A stretch of 64,000 nucleotides of DNA, from assembly GCF_003816055.1 (NCBI RefSeq), contig NZ_CP033906.1:1426001-1490000 (forward strand), written 5' to 3'. A program made the translations under genes and the position numbers. Of the stretch, positions 618-60,428 are shown in pieces; positions within the stretch are counted from its first letter, which is position 1; the number at the start of each line of letters is the position of its first letter. Origin of the DNA: Bacillus sp. FJAT-42376 (GTDB lineage Bacteria; Bacillota; Bacilli; Bacillales; Bacillaceae). The notes beneath the pieces were generated by a model that had not been told where the DNA came from, ran no database searches, and was given only the letters and a program-made list of their open reading frames with translations.

Positions 618-671
618 TTGAATTTTTTCCTCTGCATGTTATGATGGACCTGGAAAATAAAATACCGCATT

Positions 672-775
672 GCCACTAGGGGAGCCTTAAAATAGGCTGA
701 GACCGGAGCAGACTCCGGGACCCTTGGAACCTGATCTGGTTTGAACCAGCGGAGGGAAGTGGGAGATTGTCTGTT
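672..775 (+). promoter_or_regulatory. TPP (thiamine pyrophosphate) riboswitch
   Basis: The sequence carries the conserved THI-box blocks in order: GGGGAGCC near 680, GGCTGAGA near 696, ACCCTTGGAACCTGATCTGG at 720-739, and the closing ACCAGCGGAGGGAAGTGG. It is followed by a terminator at 787-820. The arrangement fits transcriptional control, in which TPP binding favours termination. The only downstream candidate target is tenA. Confidence 0.95.
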
Positions 776-39559: not shown

Positions 39560-39735
39560 GCGAAACATATCCAGCATCGGCAGGTCTCCTGACTTGTGCT
39601 TTTTCCTACTTTGAGCCCTTCCCGTACCAATTCGTACAGTGGCATGCCCATTTCGTCACACTTACAGTTGCGGGGACAGTTCCGGTATCTCACCGGATTC
39701 CCTTTTAAGCTAATCGTAGCACCGTTTGCTGTGGA
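39560..39735 (-). promoter_or_regulatory. Cobalamin (B12) riboswitch
   Basis: Read on the minus strand it contains the conserved order AAGGGAATCCGGTGAGA, then CCGGAACTGTCCCCGCAACTG, GCCACTG, and the closing AAGTCAGGAGACCTGCCGAT, which includes the B12 box. With the terminator at 39461-39495 it should turn off the class I reductase when cobalamin is present. The 100 bases between hold the switching region. The 200 bases to dat show only the dat promoter. Confidence 0.93.
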
Positions 39736-39873
39736 ATATAATCAATATATAGTAGTTTAGTTGAAGTTTGTTTTCTATATCTTGTGTTTTGTATAGATAC
39801 ATATTATCGGACAAGAATCATAATTTCAACTATTTCCCCTTAAAAATATTCTTTTTTATTTGCGCCGATGTGC

Positions 39874-60028: not shown

Positions 60029-60063
60029 GAAGAAGGGAGATGCGCTAAAGGCATCCCCCTTCG
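60029..60063 (-). terminator. Terminator of the SASP gene
   Basis: On the minus strand GAAGGGGGATGCC...GCATCTCCCTTC stem followed by a pyrimidine-rich TTCTATTTT, just after the SASP stop codon. Confidence 0.65.
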
Positions 60064-60079
60064 AATCCATGATATTAAA

Positions 60080-60280
60080 TTAGCGAGCTCCGCCGAAAGA
60101 CTGTTGAGCCATTTGTACTAGACGTTTTGTGATTTCTCCGCCTACAGAACCGTTAGCGCGAGCAGTTGTTTCTGCTCCAAGGTTTACTCCAAACTCAGAA
60201 GCGATCTCATATTTCATTTGATCGATAGCTTGTTGTGCACCTGGTACTACTAGTTGGTTTGAGCTAGTGTTGTTTGCCAT
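60080..60280 (-). CDS. sspB: Alpha/beta-type small acid-soluble spore protein
   Basis: 66 residues. Contains the germination protease site [12 protein letters not shown] and the conserved C-terminal DNA-binding part [18 protein letters not shown]. These proteins coat and protect DNA in the forespore and are degraded at germination. ATG 60280 with ATAGGAG nine bases upstream. A sigma-G-like promoter lies at 60399-60428 and a tRNA-like fold occupies the leader. The position near yheE and yheG matches sspB; alpha/beta SASPs are very similar to each other, so the letter is by synteny. Confidence 0.93.
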
Positions 60281-60306
60281 GTTTTTCAACTCCTATGAGT
60301 GTATTT

Positions 60307-60379
60307 TGGTTGGGCCAGCTGGACTTGCACCAGCCGGAGAATCAGCGAGTGAACCTCCCGCATCTGCTTGCTTGGCCCA
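60307..60379 (-). ncRNA. tRNA-like structure with encoded CCA in the sspB leader
   Basis: On the minus strand TGGGCCA (60379-60373) pairs perfectly with TGGCCCA (60317-60311) as a 7-bp acceptor, followed by A and CCA. A T-arm GCTGG-TGCAAGT-CCAGC has a 5-bp stem and 7-nt loop. A short GCA/TGC D-like stem is present. Where an anticodon arm should be, a longer hairpin GGAGGTTCA-CTCGC-TGATTCTCC occurs, so no normal anticodon. It cannot be an ordinary elongator tRNA. It lies 27 bases before the sspB start codon. Confidence 0.6.
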
Positions 60380-60398
60380 GTGCGCTTTCTACACTACG

Positions 60399-60428
60399 TA
60401 TTATGTTTCGGATATGAATGTTTCATCC
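60399..60428 (-). promoter_or_regulatory. Sigma-G-like (forespore) promoter of sspB and the tRNA-like leader
   Basis: On the minus strand GGATG (-35, 60428-60424), 18-bp spacer, CATAATA (-10, 60405-60399; fits CATnHTA). Expected start near 60391, so the transcript would begin about 12 bases before the tRNA-like fold. Confidence 0.6.

Follow-up and report, generated by a model that had tools for sequence, protein, structure and literature searches.

Alpha/beta-type SASPs are DNA-protecting spore proteins that have been much studied; a conserved RNA structure in the mRNA leader of one such gene nonetheless appears undescribed. The locus reported here raises the question of why the leader of one such gene in Bacillus sp. 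FJAT-42376 can be folded as part of a tRNA, whether this likeness is shared by related leaders, and what in the cell may read it. We will refer to the whole 64,000-nucleotide stretch that was analysed (contig NZ_CP033906.1, positions 1,426,001 to 1,490,000) as "the window", and to the tRNA-like domain as "the element", its bases being numbered as in tRNA. Where a citation carries the word "excerpts", the statement rests on a portion of that paper.

The leader and its element

The features of the locus are collected in Table 1. The original prediction had proposed a 7-bp acceptor, a 5-bp T-arm with a 7-nt loop, a discriminator A and CCA, placed between a sigma-G-like promoter and the start codon of a SASP gene; all the pairs of both stems, and this position, can be read directly. 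The interval given at that time (60307 to 60428) corresponds to the fold together with the promoter-proximal leader. By eye, the -35 region of the window has no strict match to the sigma-G-like consensus. The gene product matches PF00269 with 78.4 bits, and the host genome contains four PF00269 genes, only one of which is preceded by the element; a repeat or mobile element was rejected, since the host genome holds a single copy. The same window also contains a cobalamin riboswitch (39562-39741, minus strand) and a TPP riboswitch (668-774, plus strand).

Table 1. Positions in the window of the tRNA-like element and of the neighbouring features of the SASP gene.
Feature	Position	Strand	Basis or remark
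tRNA-Gln-like structure, U1 to A76	60307-60379	-	Fold, 75.5-bit model match, pair counts
Acceptor stem, 5' strand UGGGCCA	60373-60379	-	Direct reading, pair counts
Acceptor stem, 3' strand UGGCCCA	60311-60317	-	Direct reading; 7/7 pairs with 60373-60379
D-like hairpin GCA-AGCAGA-UGC, 3 bp	60360-60371	-	Fold
Hairpin replacing the anticodon arm, without anticodon loop	60335-60359	-	Fold; highly variable among relatives
T-arm GCUGG-UGCAAGU-CCAGC	60318-60334	-	Direct reading, pair counts
T-stem GCUGG/CCAGC	60334-60330 with 60322-60318	-	5/5 pairs
T-loop UGCAAGU, 7 nt	60329-60323	-	Position 55 is G, not U
Discriminator A73 (60310) and encoded CCA (60309-60307)	60307-60310	-	Direct reading
5' flank of the element, here C A C	60380-60382	-	Consensus Y(-3) R(-2) N(-1)
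Sigma-G-like -10, CATAATA	60399-60405	-	20-26 nt before U1; 19 nt between
Shine-Dalgarno AGGAG	60290-60294	-	Direct reading
Alpha/beta-type SASP gene, 66 aa, ATG at 60280	60080-60280	-	PF00269
Intrinsic-terminator-like hairpin 3' of the SASP gene	60032-60062	-	

Standard software does not recognise the element. ARAGORN called neither a tRNA nor a tmRNA at this position in the window, nor any among the leader loci analysed elsewhere (0/16, 0/16 and 0/5, the second set leaving aside three tRNA-Gln loci and L043). No Rfam 15 family was matched at its curated score by the window element, and the curated score of RF00005 was reached by one of 20 loci (L070, 29.1 vs 29 bits). A T-box was searched for in the window, and no Rfam match was obtained at the gathering threshold or at E values up to 10. 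A permissive Rfam scan matched the T-loop hairpin to the twister-sister family (RF02681; 14.6 bits, positions 31-47 of the 81 in the model); this ribozyme was rejected because only the hairpin was matched, with 14.6 bits against a gathering score of 34. The folding energy of the window element (MFE -31.1, z -0.77) was equalled by 45 of 200 shuffled sequences and is thus no better than chance, so that pairing within a single sequence proves little; it was dropped as uninformative, and the case was made by comparison among leaders.

Conservation of the structure

The pairing was analysed in 98 model-aligned loci, hand-picked among those carrying the element. Of their 1175 acceptor and T-arm cells, 97.8% are paired, and 9 of the 12 pairs exhibit changes on both sides, amounting to 85 cells vs 16.4 in shuffled alignments; none of 500 shuffles reached any of five pairing measures, and the pairing fell to 48-53% when the partner strand was slid by one column. 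Two-sided changes affect 6 of the 7 acceptor pairs, most of them at 4-69, 5-68 and 6-67. As this first alignment had been fitted to the structure, the test was repeated on an alignment of 100 rows from a sequence-only model, free of structure: 97.9% of the cells were paired, 8 of the 12 pairs changed on both sides, and 0 or 1 of 500 shuffles scored as high. Among 35 representatives below 80% identity, two-sided changes were again found in 9 pairs; 412 of 420 cells were paired, a figure that is biased because these rows had been pre-selected for pairing. The same pre-selection applies to the rows in which the seven strongest co-varying column pairs all belong to the acceptor or the T-stem. The comparative evidence for the structure is very strong, and the observation is real: the acceptor and T-arm pairing is conserved in related SASP leaders, the point on which the original prediction depended.

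A wider collection was obtained with a parser that demanded at least 6/7 acceptor and at least 4/5 T-arm pairs, T54, C56 and [CT]CA, yielding 119 copies (114 distinct); these requirements imply that the 119 copies overstate the required features, and the counts on 98 and 100 rows are less biased. About 105 of the 119 parsed leaders, retained for a U1 G2 G3 start and a length above 58 after removal of duplicates, were used for the flank, co-variation, promoter and folding counts.

Several positions are nearly invariant in the 98 loci. The acceptor opens with U1-A72 (96/98), G2-C71 (98/98) and G3-C70 (96/98); one locus, L269, has A1-U72 in place of U1-A72 and retains its CCA. CCA is found in all 98 model matches (82 as ACCA, 16 as GCCA); the deviants lie outside this set, namely L052 (CCC) and, in L252, L267 and L292, the downstream member of each tandem pair (no CCA). 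The T-loop keeps U54 in 98/98, C56 in 95/98 and A58 in 97/98. Position 55 is U in only 12 of 114 copies and G in most, and GG is present in the D-loop of 11 of the 12 U55 copies vs 6 of the 97 G55 copies whose D-stem could be parsed (p = 4e-10, a value not to be taken as a probability, the sequences being related). The copies combining U55 and GG belong to four family labels (f1, f4, f10, f44), the exception to f9; two more U55 copies (L258, L277) fall outside this count. Since U55 and the D-loop GG are the partners expected in the tRNA elbow contact, there are signs that some copies may still form it. C56 is changed to U in L069, L238 and L253; by eye, the D-loop of L253 is likewise devoid of G, as would be expected had both sides of the 19-56 contact changed.

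The remaining parts of the element are looser. The D-stem of the relatives is mostly GCC/GGC, also ACC/GGU and others, the window having GCA/UGC; a 3-bp Watson-Crick D-stem is missing in 5 of 114 copies, and none at all is visible in L154, L175 and L182. The replacement of the anticodon arm by a hairpin without anticodon, already noticed in the window, holds among relatives, where by eye the hairpin is variable in 114 copies and a conserved 7-nt anticodon loop is absent; this absence led us to reject an overlooked tRNA gene. A long extra insert occupies the position of the anticodon arm in L278 and L271; the SASP frame of the latter is apparently broken near its start, as deposited.

Of 105 leaders, 72 contain the strict sigma-G-like pattern in the 120 nt before U1, where mononucleotide shuffles gave 0.3 on average. 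The spacing between the -10 and U1 is loose: it averages 34.9 nt (sd 16.1) in the 80 leaders where such a -10 is present, and ranges from 10 to 107 nt in a set of 91. From CCA to the start codon, 105 leaders give a mean of 31.5 and an sd of 3.3 nt, and a Shine-Dalgarno-like motif is present in this spacer in 119/119 parsed leaders. Immediately upstream of the element, position -3 is a pyrimidine and -2 a purine, each in 104 of 106 leaders, and the conservation ends there; -1 is U in 25/106, where it could pair with A73. This flank is a sharper form of that of tRNA genes, which have a pyrimidine at -3 in 143/191, a purine at -2 in 140/191 and T at -1 in 109/191 of the tRNA genes among the collected loci (mixed bacteria, many from other phyla), and a pyrimidine at -3 in 29/37 and a purine at -2 in 26/37 of those of the host. 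No convincing co-variation partner was found for -3 and -2. A transcription start at -2 (a YR signature) was discarded because of the variable distance to the -10; a mini-ORF at U1 of the form NUG-GGU-UAA, which inspection by eye revealed in part of the leaders, is not general, as the bases after the acceptor vary.

When each leader was folded together with the start of its own gene, the acceptor formed in the MFE structure of 89 of 105 leaders. In the same 105 leaders, the Shine-Dalgarno pairs with the element at a mean probability of only 0.03 (unpaired 0.43, the Shine-Dalgarno being about half paired with other stretches), and masking of the Shine-Dalgarno by the element was therefore rejected.

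Spread among relatives and probable kinship with tRNA-Gln

An initial DNA search of 60 genomes (host and relatives), with the SASP gene and its leader as query, returned leaders from several genera, in which the acceptor was altered on both sides and ACCA and the T-arm were kept. A covariance model was built from 16 leaders, including that of the window, and run on 397 genomes of the order; 108 of them gave a best match at E ≤ 6.8e-6 with a length differing from the 75 nt of tRNA-Gln. This number, like that of the families below, is a hand tally, and part of the 108 was inspected. The inspection covered 30 loci and another 60 regions, part of which scored lower or came from a pattern search; each inspected region precedes an alpha/beta SASP gene, or its element is identical to that of a region in this position. 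Family labels number 47 in the order sample, and the inspected copies span 23 of them; in the 24 labels without an inspected copy, the element may be dispensable. Of 299 order genomes, 93 were matched by a fixed pattern, partly via tRNA-Gln genes.

A scan of named genomes recovered the element in 31 SASP leaders among the 80 matches listed, many of the other 49 loci coming from other phyla, outside that count. The listed carriers include Geobacillus zalihae, Anoxybacillus, Bacillus pumilus, B. safensis, B. velezensis, B. siamensis and B. methanolicus, as well as Rossellomorea, Cytobacillus, Lederbergia, Niallia, Metabacillus, Weizmannia, Heyndrickxia and Robertmurraya. The two inner acceptor pairs are mismatched in three loci, those of B. 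velezensis, B. siamensis and a relative (L148, L085, L036). The SASPs of L224 and L225, from the family of the host, appear to resemble B. subtilis SspA/SspB. By eye, 21 unparsed SASP leaders comprise 11 without the element and 10 with a deviating or partial copy (among these L052, L069, L076, L205, L227, L238, L252, L253 and L267); in the shown stretch of L180, the T-arm, UAACCCA and ACCA alone are visible. Leaders under genus label g66 (L292, 1501-1632; L252; L267 in part) contain two tandem tRNA-like elements per SASP gene, the upstream copy being canonical with CCA, the downstream copy having neither CCA nor U1-A72. Other alpha/beta SASP paralogs (L014, L016-L020, L026, L033 and L297, the latter from the host's own genome, G000:C1:3398028-3398192) have a different conserved leader around GCCATGTGTTTTTACACAATCTATACTCACAAGGAGGTG. 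This GCCATGTGTTTTTACACAATCTATACTCACAAGGAGGTG-type leader contains an inverted repeat and no tRNA-like element, L297 and L026 differing slightly.

Mobile SASP genes were considered as carriers and rejected: SASP matches occur in 71 plasmid and 24 phage records, and the six leaders fetched from these all lack the element (6/6). The SASP gene of plasmid CP128836.1 (L299, Rossellomorea sp.), also without the element, is missing from the gene table of the plasmid collection.

When the model was run on the host genome, the leader scored 75.5 bits (the window being one of the 16 seeds), followed by the three tRNA-Gln(UUG) genes at 41.1 bits and one non-tRNA match at 21.2 bits; up to E 10, the model matched no other tRNA in this genome. 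In a sample of 250 genomes of the class, searched at E up to 5e-6 (a cut-off that weaker relatives outside the order could escape), seven genomes outside the order matched, all of them through loci called tRNA-Gln by ARAGORN. The element shares with the host tRNA-Gln (UUG) the U1-A72 pair, the UGGG/CCCA acceptor ends, the T-stem and RCCA, and the GCC/GGC D-stem of the tRNA is that of most relatives' copies. It differs in having no anticodon arm, a shortened D-loop mostly without GG, mostly G in place of U55, A73 (82/98) for G73, and in lying inside an mRNA leader behind a sigma-G-like promoter. With tRNA-Gln genes as the next host matches, descent of the element from tRNA-Gln is likely. So, taking these matches together with its presence before one of the four host genes and its absence from the six mobile leaders, one chromosomal SASP lineage would have captured, or long kept, a tRNA-Gln.

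Candidate readers and known tRNA-like RNAs

The maintenance of a tRNA-like domain across many Bacillus relatives suggests that a tRNA-handling enzyme probably acts on this SASP messenger. On indirect grounds and with middling confidence, RNase P is our favoured reader, as the element keeps just what this enzyme reads, including the -3/-2 flank. To our knowledge, RNase P is the tRNA-binding enzyme that also touches bases before +1. It measures the stack of T-arm and acceptor from the elbow, the T-loop being needed and the D-loop apparently not (PMC4919913, excerpts); its RNA contacts leader bases -2 and -1 and its protein -8 to -3, and a preference for CCA has been reported (PMC11143913, excerpts). 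In sequence and pairing, the element offers the T-loop, a 12-bp stack (presumed to be coaxial) and RCCA. RNase P would cut the leader 5' of U1. Since CCA is a primary antideterminant in the choice of cleavage site by RNase Z (PMC4919913, excerpts), the cut would be made at the 5' side only and the element would remain joined to the coding part, giving a processed SASP mRNA with a sealed 5' end and, possibly, effects on its stability or translation. Several observations count against this reader: U occupies -1 in 25/106 leaders, whereas tRNA genes favour T there; the acceptor forms in most but not all of the MFE structures; and the inner acceptor pairs are mismatched in three loci. Besides, RNase P is not known to require U1-A72, and the near fixation of this pair points instead to a sequence-reading protein or to inertia. 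Simple stabilisation is disfavoured by one study of dormant spores, whose abundant mRNAs did not, unlike in an earlier study, include those of sspA and sspB (PMC7407066, excerpts).

Other readings have to be weighed against this one. A compact domain with the shape of a tRNA, placed immediately 5' of the 30S footprint, might favour or delay initiation, as the tight distance from CCA to the start codon beside a loose one from the -10 would suggest; the Shine-Dalgarno and its spacer would fix that distance anyway, the Shine-Dalgarno hardly pairs with the element, and the conservation of the T-loop, U1-A72 and CCA would be left unexplained, which makes this effect on the ribosome distinctly unlikely. 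We regard as still more improbable that the tRNA-like part is freed at both ends as a small RNA, possibly charged, the mRNA being its carrier: the conserved CCA fits such a product, and mascRNA is a released RNA of this kind (PMC9976931, excerpts), but the same CCA would restrain RNase Z and all inspected non-tRNA copies precede an alpha/beta SASP gene. A decaying tRNA pseudogene or chance inverted repeats would agree with the uninformative folding energy and the silence of ARAGORN; the compensatory changes and the co-variation at the elbow speak against it, the pair counts in our view already refute it, and its probability is close to nil.

The main rival in our ranking involves the glutamine-charging machinery, the host being presumed, as a Bacillus, to charge its tRNA-Gln via GatCAB. 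Either GatCAB, possibly with GluRS, or another tRNA-binding protein recognising U1-A72 and RCCA would read the domain, and its binding might link translation of the SASP mRNA, which encodes a glutamine-containing protein, to the charging of tRNA-Gln, by analogy with the thrS operator. Amidotransferases recognise Glu-tRNA-Gln by U1-A72, the nearly invariant first pair of the element, followed here by equally constant G2-C71 and G3-C70; synthetase-binding tRNA mimics are known in mRNA leaders, and mascRNA, which is tRNA-like without a conserved anticodon loop, binds GlnRS (PMC9976931, excerpts). Nonetheless, the element has no anticodon, and GluRS of B. subtilis recognises chiefly a modified U34 (PMC9976931, excerpts); its D-arm is shrunken or absent, the G73 of the host tRNA-Gln is mostly replaced by A73, L269 reverses the first pair while keeping CCA, and a CCA that continues into mRNA could not be charged unless cut free. 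This reading is accordingly rather unlikely in our judgement. Whether RNase P or a glutamine pathway reading U1-A72 is involved, we consider it fairly probable that the element represents a new, order-wide class of cis-regulatory RNA, in which an mRNA would have captured a tRNA-Gln gene as its leader and dropped the anticodon half, a tRNA-handling enzyme acting on the forespore messenger.

A conserved structured RNA in the SASP leader appears undescribed. No description of a structured leader of alpha/beta SASP genes was found in openly licensed papers, the range of the search, older subscription papers on ssp genes lying beyond it; the passages searched in two RNA-seq papers (PMC3871023, PMC4342826, excerpts) do not mention one, and those of two structured-RNA surveys (PMC2864571, PMC8632094, excerpts) contain no such motif. 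If the proposed class is true, the tRNA machinery would be a regulator of spore DNA protection, and late forespore expression would have a new control point. The element would also offer a natural system in which to study how tRNAs are distinguished from their mimics by RNase P, RNase Z, CCA enzymes and GatCAB.

tRNA-like structures as such are known, and in the openly licensed papers searched we found no precedent for a bacterial non-synthetase leader that keeps the acceptor/T/CCA half and is conserved through an order. mascRNA is mammalian, lies at the 3' end of its transcript and receives its CCA afterwards; the SASP element is bacterial, belongs to a 5' leader, has its CCA encoded, and its cleavage is only predicted. 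Both are cloverleaf-like domains of a longer transcript without a conserved anticodon loop, the MALAT1 domain being an RNase P substrate (PMC9976931, PMC12016569, excerpts). tmRNA likewise has the upper half of a tRNA without an anticodon and a 5' end processed by RNase P (PMC3985003, excerpts), but it exists as an RNA of its own with a tag frame, and ARAGORN calls none at the element. Twister-sister shares a similar T-loop-type hairpin, the rest of the ribozyme being unmatched. tRNA-Other of Bacillus cereus, raised in the original prediction as a possible relation, is also a non-decoding tRNA relative in a Bacillus; it was rejected as a relative because it is a gene of its own, has a Trp anticodon and lies next to a genomic island (PMC3399842, excerpts), and the relationship found is with tRNA-Gln. 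There is a likeness in arrangement with the thrS operator of E. coli and other leaders of synthetase mRNAs, where tRNA mimicry also occurs in the 5' leader and the own synthetase is bound via mimics of the anticodon loop (PMC9976931, excerpts). In contrast to these, the SASP element has no anticodon, keeps the acceptor/T/CCA half, and precedes the gene of a SASP instead of a synthetase.
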